Below are positions 12,407 to 23,400 of a stretch of DNA of 27,447 nucleotides, piece by piece. A model generated the notes under the pieces. That model ran no database searches. It was not told the DNA's origin and saw only the letters and a list, made by a program, of their open reading frames with translations. Origin of the DNA: a virus; IMG/VR virus record IMGVR_UViG_3300049216_000592, positions 1 through 27,447 of that record; one strand, 5' to 3'. The position numbers were made by a program, and so were the translations under genes. Every line of letters starts with the position of its first letter. The stretch's first letter is position 1.

Positions 12407-14818
12407 ATGGTTCTTCTTAAAGGCGTCAATCTTTTGCCTGCGACGGGCGAATTTGCCTATGACACGCAAGCCTATCTCGGCCAGCGGGTGAGCGAGCCGA
12501 GCCTCACCTCGATCAATCGCTATGCCAATGGCGCAGCCGGTTCGGCGACGGATTATACAGTCGCGCTGAACGATTTGCAGGCGCAATTTCCAGATTGCGA
12601 AACGGTCTCCCTTGTTGTCGCCTGGTTCGGTTATTCCACCGATATCACCGCCTGCCAAATCTATCCATCGACGACCTATATCGGTGGTGTCTTTCAAAAA
12701 TCGACAGGCGACTACGATGTCTGGCGCTGCTCGGGGCTGACGCAAAATTCTCTCGGGCTCAACCACATCCCCATGATCGGCGATGCGTTTGTTTACGGCG
12801 GCACGCCCTCCGATCAATCGATCGTACGTTGTATCGAAGATCTAAAAGCGCGTGGTTTTCGCGTCGTCTTCTATCCGTTCATCCTCATGACGGCTTCGGG
12901 TTTTCCGTGGCGCGGCAGGATCGCCTATATGGGCGCGGATGTCTCGTCCGCGGCGAGCGATGCCGTCAATGCCTTTCTCGGTTCGGCGGTGCCGTCGCAA
13001 TTCACGCCTGACATGACGAACCTCACAGTCGCCTATTCGGGCTCGCTCACGGATTATACGTTCCGGCGGATGATCCTGCATTATGCGAACCTTTGCGTGG
13101 TCGCTGGCGGGGTCGATCTTTTCTTGCTGGGCTCGGAGTTTCGCGGCATCGAAACGATCCGAGGCCCGGCATGGACAAAAGCCGGTACGACAGGTGCGGA
13201 CGGCAAAGTCATATGGGACTATCCTTTCGTCAATGGCTTGATCCAGCTCTCGGACGATGTGCGGTCTGTCTTCGATAGCGCTGGGCTCGGCAAGGATACA
13301 ACAGGGCTCCACAACCTCATCTCTTATGCGCCCGATTGGTCGGATTGGATGGGCTTTCAGCATCCAGGGGAAAACGGCCAATGGCCGCATCTCGATCAGC
13401 TCTACGCGCATGCCAATATAGATCTTGTCTGTTTCGATAATTATCTGCCCCTATCCGATTGGACGACAGGCAGTGGAGGTCTCGACGTGCAGAGCTGGAG
13501 CGAGCCTGCGCCAAACCCCGGTGCCTGGCCGCCGCCGCCAAGCACGATGAACGGATTGGGCCTTTCAGGACAGCCGACGATCTACAACTTGGTCTATCTC
13601 AAAGCCAATATCGAAGGCGGCGAGAAGTTCAACTGGTTTTATAATGACGGCACGAACGATGGCATCGGTTTCGATCCGAATGGAAGCGATCTGCGGGTGT
13701 CGTTGCCTGAAGGCGATAGGCTGATCCAAAGTCGCAGCCCCTATTATCCGAACCAGCAATTGCTTGCCAATAAACAGTTGCGCTGGTGGTGGAACAATCC
13801 GCATCAGGCAATCTATGACGATGGCGACGGGCAGGGCTATGCGCCGCATGGCCCGTTTACGGAATGGGTGCCGCGATCGAAATCGATCACGTTCACGGAA
13901 TATGGCGTTTCCGCCGTCGATCGGGGCACCAACCAGCCGAACGTCTTTTACGATCCGAAATCGTCGGAGAGCTACACGTCTTATTGGTCGGTTTGGGAAC
14001 CGCGATCGGGTGGTGGATTCAGACCAAAGCAGGACGAGGAGATCCAGCTTCTTTTCTTGCAAGCGATCTACGAATATTGGTTGATCGATGGCCATAATGC
14101 TACGTCCGCCGCTGGCCTTAAGATGATCGAGCCGAGTTTCATGTCGGCTTGGAACTGGGATGCGCGGCCGTTTCCGACCTTTCCCATCCGCACCGATATA
14201 TGGGGCGACGCTGGCAATTGGCGGGCCGGGCAATGGGTCGGCGGCAAGGGACCATTCCTCGCGCCGGCCTCCTCCGATCAGCCTGCCACGCCGCCAAACC
14301 TGCCAAGCTTTCCCGCTTTGAGCGGTCAGGGTTGGTCGCTCTTCTATCGGCCAAGTTTTACAACGAATATCGCGACGCATGTCTCAGGCCGTGAAACACG
14401 CGGCTTGAAGATGGTGCTTCCGCTCTGGGAGATCGAGTTGACCTTTGATGTCTTGCATGCGGACGCGCCAGACACGGACCTACAAGCAATTGCCGGATTC
14501 TACGATGAGATGCAAGGCAAGGAGGGGATTTTTGCTTTTCCGGCCCCGGCCTACATGAACGCCGGAATGACGCTCGACTGCCGGTTCGAAGACGATCAGG
14601 AAGATCTTGAAGAGTTCATGAACCGGCTCTTCACGCTGCGATCGCTCAAGCTGAAACAGATCAAAGGCGAAGGCACGCCTTCGGTTGTCATGTTGCTACT
14701 GGCTGGGCTGAATATCGACTGCGGCTTTGCCAGCCAATCGGGGTCGGAGATCGACGATTTCGGATTGGCGTCCGGCTCGCAAACACTTTTCATCGATTTG
14801 GGTTTAGCCTCCTTATGA
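12407..14818 (+). CDS. GTA TIM-barrel protein fused to a DUF2460-like distal-tail domain
   Basis: The 803 aa protein combines two parts usually found in different tail proteins. Residues about 1-600 match the GTA TIM-barrel (glycoside-hydrolase-like) domain: FLLGSEFRGIETIRG (Glu244), ITFTEYGVSAVDRGTNQPNV (Glu498), DPKSSESYTSYWS and WNWDARPFPTFPIRTDIWGD. Residues about 635-757 resemble DUF2460 distal-tail proteins (FPALSGQGWS, ATHVSGRETRG, CRFEDDQEDLEEFMNRL). They are related to the next gene product, implying tandem duplication. The last 35 residues (769-803) form a tag shared with the megatron-like protein ending at 19290. In Rhodobacter GTA the TIM barrel is part of the megatron (gp15); here it is separate and placed before the distal-tail gene. 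Glu244 and Glu498 are candidate catalytic acids only. The stop overlaps the next ATG. Confidence 0.85.
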   Translation: MVLLKGVNLLPATGEFAYDTQAYLGQRVSEPSLTSINRYANGAAGSATDYTVALNDLQAQFPDCETVSLVVAWFGYSTDITACQIYPSTTYIGGVFQKSTGDYDVWRCSGLTQNSLGLNHIPMIGDAFVYGGTPSDQSIVRCIEDLKARGFRVVFYPFILMTASGFPWRGRIAYMGADVSSAASDAVNAFLGSAVPSQFTPDMTNLTVAYSGSLTDYTFRRMILHYANLCVVAGGVDLFLLGSEFRGIETIRGPAWTKAGTTGADGKVIWDYPFVNGLIQLSDDVRSVFDSAGLGKDTTGLHNLISYAPDWSDWMGFQHPGENGQWPHLDQLYAHANIDLVCFDNYLPLSDWTTGSGGLDVQSWSEPAPNPGAWPPPPSTMNGLGLSGQPTIYNLVYLKANIEGGEKFNWFYNDGTNDGIGFDPNGSDLRVSLPEGDRLIQSRSPYYPNQQLLANKQLRWWWNNPHQAIYDDGDGQGYAPHGPFTEWVPRSKSITFTEYGVSAVDRGTNQPNVFYDPKSSESYTSYWSVWEPRSGGGFRPKQDEEIQLLFLQAIYEYWLIDGHNATSAAGLKMIEPSFMSAWNWDARPFPTFPIRTDIWGDAGNWRAGQWVGGKGPFLAPASSDQPATPPNLPSFPALSGQGWSLFYRPSFTTNIATHVSGRETRGLKMVLPLWEIELTFDVLHADAPDTDLQAIAGFYDEMQGKEGIFAFPAPAYMNAGMTLDCRFEDDQEDLEEFMNRLFTLRSLKLKQIKGEGTPSVVMLLLAGLNIDCGFASQSGSEIDDFGLASGSQTLFIDLGLASL

Positions 14819-15771
14819 CAACACCGCCATCCTTTCCGGTTCTGCCTGGACAAAGCTGGTCGGTCCATAAAAGGCCGACCTTTTCGACGCGCGTCGCAAG
14901 CCATGTATCGGGACGCGAAATGCGCAGCGCGCTTTATGCCGATACGCTTTACGAATTCGAGGTTACTTACGACGGACTCGATTCGGGCGGCGTCTTCACG
15001 GGCGTCGCCGCGAATTCATTGCAGGTGCTGATGGGGTTTTATCTGCAATGCCAAGGCCAATTCGGAACATTTCTTTATACGGATCCGACCGATCATGCGG
15101 TTGCTGGGCAGGTGATCGCGCTGGGCGATGGGAGCACAAGGTCATTCGGCTTTCAGCGCACGCTCGGCGGCTTCAGTGAGTCTGTCTCTTGGGTCGCGGC
15201 CGTGGCGGCCATCTATCTCAATGGCACTTCGATTCCAGCAGCGGGGCTGGCGGCGCCATCGGCGCCAAGCCTTTCGCAAATCTCCGGCGGCACGCTCGGT
15301 ACGGCCACCGTTTTTGTCAAGACGACCTATGTGACGGCTTCAGGCGAGACGGCGGCCTCGAGCGAAAGCTCACTCGCGGTATCGGCCGCTCATCTCTTGC
15401 AGGTGGCGTCGCCAAGCGCGCCGAGCCCGGCTTCTGCGACGGGCTGGAACGTCTATGTGAGCACGGCGACGGGAACCGAGGTCTTGCAAAATGGCACAAC
15501 GCCCATCGCGATCGGCGCAGCCTGGAGCGAGCCAACATCCGGTCTCGTGACCGGCACGGCCGCCACGCCGTCTGCGAACACAACCGGATGGAGTTTGGCG
15601 CAGCCGAATACGCTCATTTTCGCCGGTACGCCGAAATCCGGTGTCATCGTCACCGCCGATTTTACATATGCCTTCATCTGCCGCTTTCTCGACGATCAAG
15701 AAGATTTCGAGAATGTCATGAGCGGACTCTGGAAGCTGGATGCATTGAAGTTCCGGAGCGTGAAGCCGTGA
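14815..15771 (+). CDS. DUF2460 distal tail protein with an FN3-like insertion
   Basis: This corresponds to the GTA gp12-type distal tail protein that forms a ring joining the tube to the hub. Conserved elements are FPVLPGQSWSVHKRPTFSTR (7-26), ASHVSGREMRSALY, LQVLMGFYLQCQGQFGTFLY and the C-terminal CRFLDDQEDFENVMSGLWKL. Usual members are about 210 residues; this one has 318. The excess (about 146-255) is an FN3/Ig-like beta module: TTYVTASGETAASSES followed by ATGWNVYVSTATGTEVLQ. Such modules are thought to bind surface carbohydrates. ATG 14815 overlaps the previous stop (ATGA), so the genes are coupled. Confidence 0.88.
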   Translation: MTTPPSFPVLPGQSWSVHKRPTFSTRVASHVSGREMRSALYADTLYEFEVTYDGLDSGGVFTGVAANSLQVLMGFYLQCQGQFGTFLYTDPTDHAVAGQVIALGDGSTRSFGFQRTLGGFSESVSWVAAVAAIYLNGTSIPAAGLAAPSAPSLSQISGGTLGTATVFVKTTYVTASGETAASSESSLAVSAAHLLQVASPSAPSPASATGWNVYVSTATGTEVLQNGTTPIAIGAAWSEPTSGLVTGTAATPSANTTGWSLAQPNTLIFAGTPKSGVIVTADFTYAFICRFLDDQEDFENVMSGLWKLDALKFRSVKP

Positions 15772-17130: not shown

Positions 17131-19290
17131 TTGGGCGGTCATCACCAAAGCGCGCCTGTCGCGCAGGCGGTCACGCCGGATTATACCGGCCTGCAGCTTC
17201 AGACATCCTCTAACGCGCTGCCGATCCCGATCGTTTGGGGCGTCACGCAGATCGCACCGAATCTTATATGGAGTGGCGATTTCAACGCACAGCCGACCTA
17301 CACGCAGGAAACGGGCACAAATACTGGCAAAGGCGGCGCCAGCACCTCTACTTATAGCTATGAACAGGTCACCGGATATAATTATTTCACGGCCATTATA
17401 TTTGGCCTTTGCGAAGGGCCTATCCATGGCATCGGCACGATCTGGCAGGGCCAAAGCACTTACGATACAAGCAGCCTCGGACTTTCAGAATTCGACGGCG
17501 GTACGCCGCAAAGCACGTGGAGCTATCTCTCGAGCAATCATCCGGACCAGGCTCTGTCCTATCCCGGGCTCGCCTTCCTCGCTTCGTCGAATTTCGCCTT
17601 GGGTTCGAGCGCCTCGCTCAACCTCACTTATGTGGAAGTCGCTGGCATTCTCGGTAGTTCGTCCGGCGTCAACGGATTGGACGCGGACCCAGCTCAGGTC
17701 ATCCAGGACTTCTTGACGAATGCGCAATATGGCGTCGGCTTCCCCTCGGCCAGCATCGATGCGAATACGCTTTTCACGGGTGCTTCTTGTTACCAAGTCT
17801 ATTGCCGCGCGGCCGGACTTGCACTTTCGCCAGCGCTCGTGAACCAAGAAGCGGCGAACAGCATTTTATCCCGCTGGCTGCAATTGACGAATACGGCGGC
17901 GATCTGGTCGGGCGGGCGATTGAAGTTCATCCCTTATGGCGATTCGGCGATCGGCGCGTTCATGCCGAATCTGACACCGGTTTACGATCTTACAGACGAT
18001 GACTTTATCTTTACGGATGGTGAGGATCCGGTGCAGGTCGGCCGCATCGATCCCTACGCCGCTTATAATATGCAGGCGCTTGAAATTCTCGACAGCGGCA
18101 ATTCTTGGGCTGCGACGCCGATCATTGCTTTCGATCAAAACGCCATCGATCTCTACGGTCTGCGGATCGCATCGACTCTTACGGCCCATGAGATTTGCGA
18201 TACGGGAGTCGGGATGAACGCGGCGCAGCTCATCCTACAGCGCGGACTTTATATTCGTACGGCTTACACATTTAAGCTCTCGTGGGAATATTGCCTGCTG
18301 GAACCGATGGATCTCGTCAACATCACCGATACGGCGCTGGGTCTTGCAAACACGACAGTCCGGATCACTGAAATAGATGAAGACGACAACGGGATTTTGA
18401 TGATCGTCGCGGAAGAATTCCCAGCGGGGACTGCGACCGCCGTGGCCTATCCGTCCCAAGCATCTTCGGGCATTCTGATCAACCGCAATATCGCGCCGGC
18501 TTCCGTCAATACGCCTTCGATCTACGAACCGCCCTCCGCTCTGTCAGCGAGCGGGAAAGCGGAAGTCTGGATCGGTGTGTCCGGCGGTACAAGCGGTGTG
18601 GCGGATCCCAACTGGGGCGGCGCATTCGTCTGGATCTCGACGGACAACATCACGTTCTCGCAAATCGGCGCGATCACGGCGCCGGCGCGGCAAGGTCTTC
18701 TCACCGCGACGCTGGCATCGTCCGGCGGCCAGGCCAATCCGCAGCCACCGTTCAACACCATCGACACGGCGCATACATTATCCGTCAGTCTAACGGAAAG
18801 TGGAGGAGCTTTAGAGTCGACCACTTCGCAGGGCGTGGAAAACGCCGCCACTTTATGCCTCATCGATCAGGAATTGATGGCCTACGAAACCGTCGCACTG
18901 ACGGGTTCGCATGCTTATAATTTGACGAATTTGGCACGCGGAGTCTATGGCTCGATCCCTGCCTCGCACATGAGCGGCGCGGTCTTTACGCGCCTCGACG
19001 CGGCGATCTTCAAATACATCATGCCTGATTCATATCTTGGGCAAGAGATCTACATCAAGCTTCAAAGCTTCAATGTCTTCGGCAACGCGGTTCAAGATCT
19101 CGCAGCTTGCACGGTCTATACATATAAACCATTTGGCTTGGGCGCTTTCGGCCCCATAGCGACGGCCCTGGCGACAGGCAACAACGTCGATTGCGGTCTC
19201 GCGAGCGGCGGCGCCGCGCAATATGACGATTTCGGCTTCGCTTCCGATCCCTATCCGAATTTTATCGATCTTGGCCTTGCATCGTCTTGA
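17131..19290 (+). CDS. megatron-like tail protein (phage-tail_3 / GTA gp15 type) lacking its TIM barrel
   Basis: The protein should form the central tail-tip fibre or hub extension that contacts the cell. TTG 17131 is chosen because GGGAGG lies about 10 bases upstream and the mature start GGHHQSAPVAQ resembles the MGG...SAP start of the family; TTG 17113 is an alternative. N-terminal SSNALPIPIVWGVTQIAPNL and WSGDF, followed by YFTAIIFGLCEGPIHGIG, mark the gp15/host-specificity family. The central region has QLTNTAAIWSGGRLKFIPYG and the segment LEPMDLVNITDTALGLANTT. The protein has 719 residues, well short of the roughly 1300 of GTA gp15, because the TIM barrel is encoded at 12407. Its last 35 residues (685-719) match the tag of that protein at 20 positions without gaps. 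Confidence 0.85.
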   Translation: MGGHHQSAPVAQAVTPDYTGLQLQTSSNALPIPIVWGVTQIAPNLIWSGDFNAQPTYTQETGTNTGKGGASTSTYSYEQVTGYNYFTAIIFGLCEGPIHGIGTIWQGQSTYDTSSLGLSEFDGGTPQSTWSYLSSNHPDQALSYPGLAFLASSNFALGSSASLNLTYVEVAGILGSSSGVNGLDADPAQVIQDFLTNAQYGVGFPSASIDANTLFTGASCYQVYCRAAGLALSPALVNQEAANSILSRWLQLTNTAAIWSGGRLKFIPYGDSAIGAFMPNLTPVYDLTDDDFIFTDGEDPVQVGRIDPYAAYNMQALEILDSGNSWAATPIIAFDQNAIDLYGLRIASTLTAHEICDTGVGMNAAQLILQRGLYIRTAYTFKLSWEYCLLEPMDLVNITDTALGLANTTVRITEIDEDDNGILMIVAEEFPAGTATAVAYPSQASSGILINRNIAPASVNTPSIYEPPSALSASGKAEVWIGVSGGTSGVADPNWGGAFVWISTDNITFSQIGAITAPARQGLLTATLASSGGQANPQPPFNTIDTAHTLSVSLTESGGALESTTSQGVENAATLCLIDQELMAYETVALTGSHAYNLTNLARGVYGSIPASHMSGAVFTRLDAAIFKYIMPDSYLGQEIYIKLQSFNVFGNAVQDLAACTVYTYKPFGLGAFGPIATALATGNNVDCGLASGGAAQYDDFGFASDPYPNFIDLGLASS

Positions 19291-19314: not shown

Positions 19315-20178
19315 ATGAGTATTCGCCTTCAGCATTTGCGTGAAGCATGGTCGTTTTTATCGACGTTTACCGGCCGTGTCGGCGAAATCGCGATCGATAC
19401 GACGAACAACCGTCTGATCGTGCAAGATGGTGTCACGGCTGGCGGCTGGCCCGCCGCGAAACTATCCGAAACGGTGACGAATACGCGCATCGCTATCAAC
19501 GATACGGCCTATTCGGCTCTGACGACAGACCGGACGATTGCCTACACGGCCTTGACCGCCGCGCGAGTCGTTACGCTTCCGTCGGCGAGCGCCTATCCGA
19601 CTGGCACACGCCTTTTGGTTATCGATGAATCCGGGGCTTGCTCTTCGGCAAATACAATCGCACTTTCCCATGCTGGATCGGATACGATCAATGGCGCGGC
19701 GAGCGCGATCATTTCGGCTCCCTACGGCTTCGCGGCTGTCGAAAGCAATGGCTCGAACGCTTGGACTCTAACAGATCTTTCGGGAGCAGCGCTGCATGGC
19801 GCAAACGGATCCGCGGTCGGATTGGGCCTCATCGAGGGAAGCATCGCATGCTCCAGTGCATCATCCGTTTCAACAATTCAGATCCCGAACCGTGCGATTG
19901 TACTTGGCGTTTCTGTCTACGTGACGGCCGCGATCACCGGCGCGACATCATACAACGTCGATGCCACGACAAGCGCGAGCGGCGGCGCGGGAACGACGGC
20001 CGGTCAATTTGGCGCCTCGCTTGGGGTCGCGGCGGGATCGAATAATGCCGGTGTGATCGGACCGACCGCCTGGTATGCGGCATCGACGATCAAGCTGACG
20101 GCGAATGGGTCGAACTTTACCGGCGGCTCTGTCCGGGTTGCGATCCAATATCTGCTCATCGGTGCGCCATCGTCTTAA
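19315..20178 (+). CDS. tail fibre-like protein
   Basis: The 287 aa protein begins LQHLREAWSFLSTFTGRVGE and then IAIDTTNNRLIVQDG, the short beta-turn segment (GE.AIDT.N..L.V.DG) found at the start of many phage fibre and hyaluronidase-type proteins. The middle part (VVTLPSASAYPTGTRLLVID, then GSDTINGAASAI) looks like a beta-rich shaft, and the C-terminal part (ITGATSYNVDATTSASGG, VAIQYLLIGAPS) like a jelly-roll receptor-binding end. AAAGGA precedes ATG 19315. It directly follows the tail tip gene, consistent with host recognition. Confidence 0.7.
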   Translation: MSIRLQHLREAWSFLSTFTGRVGEIAIDTTNNRLIVQDGVTAGGWPAAKLSETVTNTRIAINDTAYSALTTDRTIAYTALTAARVVTLPSASAYPTGTRLLVIDESGACSSANTIALSHAGSDTINGAASAIISAPYGFAAVESNGSNAWTLTDLSGAALHGANGSAVGLGLIEGSIACSSASSVSTIQIPNRAIVLGVSVYVTAAITGATSYNVDATTSASGGAGTTAGQFGASLGVAAGSNNAGVIGPTAWYAASTIKLTANGSNFTGGSVRVAIQYLLIGAPSS

Positions 20179-20874: not shown

Positions 20875-23400
20875 GTGACATTTTTTAAAAAGCTGTTGTG
20901 TGGCTGCCTCGTAGCCGCGCTTGCTGACCTTCCCGCCTATGCGCTGCAAGCGCCGCTCGTGCCGCCGATCGCTGGCAGCTCTGCCTGCAATTTGCAAAGC
21001 GGCGCGGCGGCCGCGAATGCCGGTGTGTCGCCGCGCGCCTTTTGCTCGATGGACCCGCAATTCGGGGCCTATGGCGATGCGCAGCAAATGTGGGGCAATA
21101 CGCTCATCACGACGGGCACAAATGCGCTGACGGTCGGCACCGCGCAGACGATTTCCGCGACGGTCACGGCCATTGCCGGTGCCAATAATATTACGACATC
21201 GGCGTCGGTTTTCCCTTCGGCGGGAACGTCGCGCAATAACCTCATCGGACAGCCGATCTCGATCACCGGAGTCGGCAAAAATGGCGCGACGTTCAATTCG
21301 ACGATCGTGACAGTCGTCAACAACACGCAAATCGCTTTCGCCGATCCGCTTCCGACGGCTGTCACGGCCTCGGCGCAGACGATCGTCATCGGTGCCTATT
21401 TTAACTCCGCCGATGTCGGTAAGGCTATCGTCGTGCCAGGGGCTGGCGCGGCCGCTTGCCCGATGCTCGTGGGGCGAGGTCAAAATGTTTCCAACTGTCT
21501 TATCACAAGCATCGCCTCTTACGTCAGCGCGAATAGCGTCACGCTCGCAGCGAACGCGACGGCGACGCTCAGCACGGGCAATACGAATGCATGGCAGCAA
21601 ATCGTTTGGGGTCACGACGATAGCGCGGCGCTGTCCGCCGCCATTCTGGCGGCGATCGCACGCGGCGACCGCTATCTCTACGTGCCGGGCAACCACTACG
21701 TTCCGTCCATGTCGGCGCTCGCGGCCTATGTGATCCCTTATGGAGAAGGAAAGTTCTTCGCGGCGCCCATGCGCCGCTATGTGATCCCCTCGAACGCGCC
21801 GCAGGCCGCGCCGCCGTCCTCCGATATTTCGCCGCTTATGCTCGCCAATACGAAGGCGGCGGGGAGCCCGGTCAATGTCGTGATCGGCGACAGCATTTGG
21901 CAGAATGCCAACGATCCGTCGAATGAGATGCAGCCTTGGACTTACTTTCAAGCCGTATTGACATGGCGCAATCCGTCGAAGTCGATGGCTAACTACAACC
22001 GCGCCATTGGCGCTCAGTCATGGGTGAATGCCGATACTGTGCCAAGCGCATTTCCGTCTTGGGACGCAAACCATTCGACGCCGTGGCTTGGATCGCCAGC
22101 GGCCAGCGGCTATGTTTATGCTCTTAACCCCACACTTTTGCTCATGGGGTTCCAGAACAATGATGGCACGGGTTTTAGCATCTCTTCATTTTTAGATGCG
22201 CAGTCGAAAATCAGCACATGGGCGAGCCAGCCTGACCGCATCTTTGCTACGCATTGGACGAAGACCATTTTTCAAACGGGAATTAATGCTCCCGATGCAG
22301 GCGATTATGCCGCCATGTTTCTTCGAACCTATGCCAGGGCGATGGGTTACGGACTGATCGATTTCAACCGGCAGGGTGACAAGCTTCGTGACGGTTTCGA
22401 TCCTTTGGCAAATGCGATGGTGCTCTCCCCCGCCTATAACGATTTCGCGAATGCGCGCCTCAATCTGCCCTATACATCGCCGATTTCCACGACTGGATAT
22501 AGCGTGGCTTTAAACGATGTGACCGGGCAATCCGGACCGTCGTTTTGGTCGCATTACGGAAATGAAATTCAATTCTCGCTTTCGGCGGGGTCCGGCAACC
22601 TCTTCCGCATGGGCTATGACAGCGCCGCCGATGCGACCGGCAATATCGGCTCCGGCAATCTCTACTATCAATGCGATATTTCGGCATCCTATCCAGGCGC
22701 TGGATGTGCTGGTGGCACCAAGCCGTCCATTTTGACAAATGTTTCGATCGCCTCAGGCAGCAACAGCCTGACGACCTCCGCGGCCATTTTTACGACCGCG
22801 GATAATTGCGTGTGGATGACGGTCCCTGGCGCGGGAAGCTCTGGAGGGCAGTTCGTCGCTTATGGAAAATATATCAGCACGACGAATGTCACGTTCTTTT
22901 CCGATGCGGGATGCACCACTGCGCGCAACGCTAATACGACCTTGAGCGCCTCGAACCAGGTCATCCTGCGTGGCAACCCGAAGATCCAGACAGGCATCAA
23001 TGTGTCGTCAGATGCGACGAATAGCACTTCTTTCGGTGTGTCGATCAGTGGCGACATCGTAAATTTATTCTACCAAAATGCCGAGCATGCACCGTTCTTC
23101 TCAGGCGCGGCGGTCCGCTTTGGCGGCCCTTTTGTGCCAGCGATTACCGCGACGACCAACTTTCCGCTTGGCGTTTCTATTTTTGGCTCTACCAATGAAG
23201 CGTTCTTTGTCGAAACACCCCAGCTCACATGGCCGTCTCTGATGGATGCCGATGTGAATGGCCCGACCTCAGATACCCCTGTCAATAATCCGTCCTATAT
23301 CGGCGCATTCGGCGGCGCTGGCGATAATCACGGCACGTCCAAGGCTATGGGGCTGATCGTGCGGCCGGTGATCGACGCGGCGGGGTTGGCGGCGCAATAG
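20875..23400 (+). CDS. large tailspike-like protein with signal peptide and SGNH-hydrolase-like region
   Basis: The 841 aa protein starts at GTG 20875 after AGGAG. Its N-terminus (MTFFKKLLCGCLVAALADLP, then AYALQ) looks like a signal peptide. Two related beta modules occur, at about 110-225 (SADVGKAIVVPGAGAAACPM) and about 620-705 (NNCVWMTVPGAGSSGG-like, DNCVWMTVPGAGSSG). Residues 247-283 (HDDSAALSAAILAAIARGDR, YLYVPGNHYV) match the opening of pectate-lyase-type spike domains. Residues about 335-540 look like an SGNH hydrolase: VVIGDSIWQ with Ser340, LLLMGFQNND (421-430), and GYGLIDFNRQGDKLRDGFDP. A clear DxxH catalytic block is absent. It could degrade or deacetylate surface polysaccharide, but activity is uncertain. 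Confidence 0.7.
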   Translation: MTFFKKLLCGCLVAALADLPAYALQAPLVPPIAGSSACNLQSGAAAANAGVSPRAFCSMDPQFGAYGDAQQMWGNTLITTGTNALTVGTAQTISATVTAIAGANNITTSASVFPSAGTSRNNLIGQPISITGVGKNGATFNSTIVTVVNNTQIAFADPLPTAVTASAQTIVIGAYFNSADVGKAIVVPGAGAAACPMLVGRGQNVSNCLITSIASYVSANSVTLAANATATLSTGNTNAWQQIVWGHDDSAALSAAILAAIARGDRYLYVPGNHYVPSMSALAAYVIPYGEGKFFAAPMRRYVIPSNAPQAAPPSSDISPLMLANTKAAGSPVNVVIGDSIWQNANDPSNEMQPWTYFQAVLTWRNPSKSMANYNRAIGAQSWVNADTVPSAFPSWDANHSTPWLGSPAASGYVYALNPTLLLMGFQNNDGTGFSISSFLDAQSKISTWASQPDRIFATHWTKTIFQTGINAPDAGDYAAMFLRTYARAMGYGLIDFNRQGDKLRDGFDPLANAMVLSPAYNDFANARLNLPYTSPISTTGYSVALNDVTGQSGPSFWSHYGNEIQFSLSAGSGNLFRMGYDSAADATGNIGSGNLYYQCDISASYPGAGCAGGTKPSILTNVSIASGSNSLTTSAAIFTTADNCVWMTVPGAGSSGGQFVAYGKYISTTNVTFFSDAGCTTARNANTTLSASNQVILRGNPKIQTGINVSSDATNSTSFGVSISGDIVNLFYQNAEHAPFFSGAAVRFGGPFVPAITATTNFPLGVSIFGSTNEAFFVETPQLTWPSLMDADVNGPTSDTPVNNPSYIGAFGGAGDNHGTSKAMGLIVRPVIDAAGLAAQ

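Follow-up and report, generated by a model that had tools for sequence, protein, structure and literature searches.

A repeated D-x-G peptide on phage tail proteins is a probable docking site for Mtd_N-bearing receptor-binding proteins

Two tail-tip proteins encoded in a 27,447-base IMG/VR virus record (hereafter the window, meaning the whole stretch of DNA analysed) each end in three tandem copies of a 13-residue DxGx(A/V/I)(S/T) unit. Our results suggest, with a probability of roughly 0.8, that D-x-G units are docking peptides for receptor-binding proteins bearing an Mtd_N domain, presented in tandem or by several chains. The repeat, its spread, and its co-occurrence and directed adjacency with Mtd_N are direct observations, from which we infer that Mtd_N would bind the peptide; no complex of Mtd_N with a D-x-G peptide was found in the PDB.

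Results

Two tail-tip proteins of the window end in the same tandem repeat

The genes of the window run from terminase, portal and others through the tail tip to lysozyme. P0003 (12407..14818, plus strand; 803 aa) carries a GTA TIM-barrel domain (PF13547) and DUF2460 (PF09343), and its C-terminus, encoded at 14711-14815, reads NIDCGFASQSGSEIDDFGLASGSQTLFIDLGLASL up to the stop codon. The three units of this triplet begin at nt 14711, 14750 and 14789, with the cores NIDCGFAS (14711-14734), IDDFGLAS (14750-14773) and FIDLGLAS (14789-14812). P0004 (17113..19290, plus strand; 725 aa) is a gp15/megatron-like hub with Phage-tail_3 (PF13550) and Rcc01698_C (PF23666). Its C-terminus, encoded at 19183-19287, reads NVDCGLASGGAAQYDDFGFASDPYPNFIDLGLASS up to the stop codon, and its units begin at nt 19183, 19222 and 19261, with the cores NVDCGLAS (19183-19206), YDDFGFAS (19222-19245) and FIDLGLAS (19261-19284).

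A first-pass annotation of this DNA had claimed that the two C-termini match without gaps at 20 of 35 positions, each with three beats. Comparison of the translations confirmed the match, and the beats proved to recur in perfect tandem, one every 13 residues. None of 100,000 shuffled controls reached 20 identities (maximum 13), and the next best match among 9,453 pairs of C-termini from window ORFs was 10. At the DNA level the two tags are identical at 61 of 105 nucleotides and share the same codon at only 8 of the 20 identical residues; their likeness is therefore one of protein, not of a recent DNA copy.

The tail-tip identity assigned to both proteins by that annotation was borne out, since they match two parts of the RcGTA/R4C megatron, GTA_TIM plus DUF2460 for P0003 and Phage-tail_3 plus Rcc01698_C for P0004. 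The RcGTA megatron chain 6tba_8A was matched with E 7.7e-75 by P0003 and 1.1e-05 by P0004. A single-chain megatron layout of TIM-barrel, adhesin-like and central parts was not found here; the TIM barrel lies on P0003 and the rest on P0004.

Between the two tagged genes, all on the plus strand, lie an untagged second DUF2460 protein (P0005, 14815..15771), a baseplate hub with PF09931 and PF09356 that is untagged in the window (P0006, 15782..16648) and an NlpC/P60 peptidase assigned by a weak Pfam match just under the curated cut-off (P0007, 16652..17125). The C-terminus of P0003 and the whole of P0005 form tandem DUF2460 proteins (12407-15771), which suggests that a gp12-like protein was duplicated and then fused to a TIM domain.

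The D-x-G triplet is a widespread module of phage tail proteins

The first-pass annotation had proposed a search for the repeated D-x-G pattern in phage genomes. When viral contigs were searched with a DNA pattern in which three D[YF]G lie 39 nt apart, the matches were mostly true modules on tail or virion proteins, and the module recurs across phages. Its carriers include gp15-like hubs and a DUF2163-type hub, J-like proteins (where it lies within FnIII-like domains), baseplate-type proteins, and giant structural proteins that have as many as ~10 modules each. Alignments showed that the triplet can be inserted cleanly and in frame: it interrupts one or the other of two TIM-barrel loops (L103, L036), DUF2460 (L038) and the hub protein of L092, a relative of P0006. 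The tag is thus not special to the two window proteins, since it occurs on many unrelated tail proteins. The triplet was found on tail proteins only.

A hidden Markov model trained only on modules of unrelated phages recognised the tags of the gp15 family (19 matches at E < 0.01; reversed decoys, 0) and matched the P0003 tag of the window with E 0.013. Among 54 modules, no consistent sequence counterpart was found in Pfam, PHROG or the PDB. In bacterial genomes, the matches listed for the triplet pattern were simple repeats, with no module at any locus among them. Nothing relevant on DYG or 13-residue repeats was found in the open papers searched. In the Sinorhizobium phage Phosso (L267), a 469 kb jumbo phage, triplet-like units occur in a protein of ~3,700 aa, and three Mtd_N genes lie elsewhere in the genome.

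Triplet genes are usually followed by genes that encode Mtd_N

In the loci that we read, the genes after triplet genes repeatedly begin with RRGTT...FTGAxGEIxVDT...VVHDGxTAGG. This sequence corresponds to Mtd_N (PF18454), the domain with which the receptor-binding protein of phage BPP-1 begins. In the window, P0008 (19315..20178, plus strand) starts 24 nt past the P0004 stop, and matches PF18454 with E 6.7e-07 and 29.6 bits (cut-off 26.3). It is a predicted receptor-binding or adaptor protein that would dock on the triplet, its Mtd_N domain (residues 6-41; 19330..19437, plus strand) being the predicted plug. A Pfam search that detected the second Mtd domain, PF21916, in Mtd itself found only PF18454 in P0008. 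No Mtd_N gene adjoins the gene of P0003 to pair with its tag. After the receptor-binding protein gene, positions 20875-23400 encode an 841-aa protein with no Pfam match, no Mtd_N and weak PHROG matches (unknown function; pectin-lyase-like), possibly a tailspike or depolymerase.

Of 50 triplet contigs, 42 had Mtd_N; of 50 control records with a similar combined length, none did. These controls were 37 viral contigs taken at random, 8 false-positive contigs and 5 megatron/hub phages without a triplet. Where Mtd_N lay in the fetched stretch, it was downstream of the triplet on the same strand at 63 of 64 loci, and within 500 nt at 51. In INPHARED, all 25 records retrieved by the triplet query, representing about four independent lineages, fall among the 57 Mtd_N records of 50,697. 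PF18454 was not detectable in two contigs that bear a triplet, L127 of 40 kb and L141 of 22 kb; they may be fragments, carry a diverged Mtd_N or use another partner.

The association also held in the reverse direction, in 115 loci that we collected solely with an Mtd_N DNA pattern. Here every triplet (19/19) lay upstream on the same strand, with none downstream or on the opposite strand. The motif D[YF]G.[IVLA] occurred 70 times in the upstream proteins against 5.6 after shuffling (12-fold), and showed no enrichment in the Mtd_N proteins themselves (4 against 4.3). A C-terminal D-x-G followed by 2-4 residues was present on 77 of 109 upstream neighbours and missing from 32, some owing to ORF choice or truncation. 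Among ORFs of at least 200 aa, it was found on 43 of 66 upstream ORFs versus 20 of 348 others (Fisher p 2e-26). Annotated genes directly upstream of Mtd_N that bear units include BPP-1 Bbp9, CRP-3 gp31, S-TIP37_39, HTVC008M and AH02_14, and T7-type fibres (PF03906) bear one internal and one C-terminal unit. In the group of Stenotrophomonas phage DLP4, Mtd_N is reported to adjoin a Phage-tail_3 protein (PMC9206674); the DLP4 Phage-tail_3 hub upstream of Mtd_N ends in IFDGGGA, which fits D-x-G only in its lenient form.

A second C-terminal motif, DGG(T/N)(Y/F) before the stop, was observed on 13 ORFs (loci L297, L301, L303, L324, L328, L329, L363, L365, L378, L390 and L392), and in six cases the next ORF begins with a weak Mtd_N cousin (KRS...GEIAVN...DKKIY). 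Some of the small adaptors that start with such a cousin have a D-x-G at their own C-terminus and are followed by an Mtd_N gene, possibly forming a daisy chain.

Adhesion or chaperone binding explains the gene order less well

Instead of a docking peptide, the triplet could be a small adhesion domain on the virion, for example a sugar-binding one, co-inherited with Mtd_N receptor-binding proteins. Its restriction to tail proteins and its placement in surface loops of several of them, reminiscent of Ig/FnIII decorations, would suit such a role. However, co-inheritance alone fails to explain the strict orientation and adjacency of the two genes (19/19 upstream), and leaves unexplained both the single units at the extreme C-terminus of the upstream gene (77/109) and the finding of Mtd_N in 0 of 5 megatron/hub phages that lack the triplet. 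We consider an adhesion domain unlikely.

Recognition of the D-x-G peptide by a tail-fibre assembly factor or chaperone, rather than by the receptor-binding protein, appears very unlikely. Exposed, flexible C-terminal peptides would be typical sites for such factors, and the tag is predicted to be disordered. However, inspection of the loci revealed no factor gene other than Mtd_N that recurs across them, and triplets in internal loops would be unusual for chaperone tags.

The tag is constant in relatives of P0004 and rare in those of P0003

Among the related viral contigs that we fetched, all 27 relatives of P0004 have the triplet, a few with one degenerate unit, and it nearly always forms the last 45-49 residues. 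The P0004-like protein of L052 has two triplets. In L027, the gp15-like ORF (ending at ~17253) continues in frame after the triplet into the fibre-like sequence GGTGATSPTLARANIGAA..., and its sequence suggests a naturally occurring fusion of hub and fibre, joined where docking is predicted. By contrast, among 52 complete C-termini of P0003-like proteins, the tag is present in only three, those of the window, L004 and L005; such proteins normally end directly past DUF2460. The P0003 tags are alike at 29 of 35 positions and agree with P0004 tags at only 19-21. Since they are closer to each other than to the P0004 tags, the P0003 tag was probably gained once, in the ancestor of this small group.

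The first-pass annotation had proposed that the tag mediates common docking or processing of the two megatron halves, or reflects the split of one ancestor by duplication. Docking is retained as the best reading of the sequences, and nothing points to processing; the evidence suggests that the docking partner, rather than being the other half, is the receptor-binding protein encoded next. It is highly improbable that a tagged ancestor was duplicated or split to give the two halves, or that both dock through the tag to one shared hub partner. Both proteins are indeed tagged and match megatron parts, but their domains differ, the tag also occurs on unrelated proteins, and the R4C megatron and the gp15-like hubs of Polewnik and KT1 have no D-x-G triplet. 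A tag that is universal in P0004 relatives and rare in P0003-like proteins (27/27 versus 3/52) was not inherited from a split megatron.

Finally, a nucleotide artefact of translational coupling, in which the C-terminal motif reflects the ribosome-binding site of the next gene, can practically be dismissed: GGA is the commonest glycine codon of the C-terminal D-x-G (36/77) and the next gene starts nearby, but GGT, GGG and GGC are also used, F, L, Y and W predominate at the middle position, and mid-protein triplets far from gene ends refute it.

A docking model for receptor-binding proteins

We then propose a model in which the 13-residue D-x-G unit acts as a linear docking peptide on phage tail proteins, to which proteins starting with Mtd_N would attach. 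A carrier would display at its C-terminus a single unit or a tandem of two or three, or else a triplet inserted into a surface loop. In the window, the terminal triplet of P0004 would hold P0008, the product of the adjacent gene, and the second triplet, gained by P0003, would add another docking site on the tail tip. In RcGTA and R4C, each baseplate has three megatrons, to which nine fibre chains are bound as trimeric fibres (PMC7296036, PMC10276861), and the tag takes the place of the fibre-binding region of these megatrons.

AlphaFold predicted the module alone without secondary structure (pLDDT 68). The P0004 model has an ordered core and a low-confidence tail from residue ~677, with residues 699-725 below pLDDT 50. 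These models are weakly compatible with an exposed, flexible peptide that would become ordered on binding, and low AlphaFold confidence may merely reflect weak input.

The three units may serve one trimer of the receptor-binding protein, either in cis (triplet) or in trans (homotrimeric fibre), a reading to which we give somewhat less than even odds. The triplet would occur where the carrier provides one chain per site, and one unit per chain would be enough on a homotrimeric fibre. Exactly three units were found in motif-selected triplets and gp15 relatives, with a fourth unit in 0 of 38. We dropped this as a general rule because one or two units are common in the Mtd_N-selected set; neither its roughly 14 tandem doublets nor Bbp9, with three units, fits a simple equation of three units with one trimer. 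Mtd is possibly a hexamer on each fibre (PMC3567102). An equation of two Bbp9 units with two Mtd trimers per fibre was abandoned when a third, C-terminal unit was found.

More tentatively, we speculate that D-x-G peptides, at a C-terminus or in a loop, and N-terminal beta-prisms of the Mtd_N type form a general modular plug-and-socket system among tailed phages, in which fibres, adaptors and receptor-binding proteins would be daisy-chained and the number of units would set the copies of the receptor-binding protein. Such a system would have several orthogonal codes, one being D(F/Y/W/L)Gx(I/L/V) for RRG-type Mtd_N and another DGG(T/N)(Y/F) before the stop for the KRS-type cousin.

Discussion

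The closest parallel is BPP-1 (PF18454; PDB 1YU0-1YU4, 2IOU), in which the Mtd_N protein is likewise encoded directly after a D-x-G-bearing tail protein. Its tail fibre Bbp9 has units at 201, 425 and 503 and ends in ADLGGIA. These units are dispersed and do not form a tandem triplet, and P0008 of the window differs from Mtd in having no PF21916. The megatron fibre-binding domain of RcGTA and roseophage R4C (PDB 6TEH/6TBA, 8GTC) is also a C-terminal region of a homologous hub and attaches trimeric fibres. However, it is large (~300 residues), and R4C has neither the D-x-G triplet nor Mtd_N.

The general principle that trimeric receptor-binding proteins dock on tail proteins is already known. 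We found no account of the repeated D-x-G peptide, of its movement between tail proteins or of its pairing with Mtd_N in the databases and open papers that we covered, and these appear to be new. In adenovirus, a short linear peptide joins the trimeric receptor-binding fibre to the penton base of the virion. That peptide lies on the N-terminus of the fibre, whereas the peptide described here lies on the carrier and is repeated; the two sequences are unrelated.

For modular receptor-binding proteins, including the hypervariable Mtd of diversity-generating retroelements, anchoring on the virion has been described only as "presumably" occurring through the N-terminal beta-prism, which in Mtd would attach to the fibre (PMC10743442). 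If the model is true, its socket peptide, recognisable from sequence, would make the interface between receptor-binding protein and virion directly testable. It would also aid in finding receptor-binding proteins and in counting their attachment sites from sequence, and would explain how phages exchange or multiply receptor-binding proteins on unrelated tail proteins.
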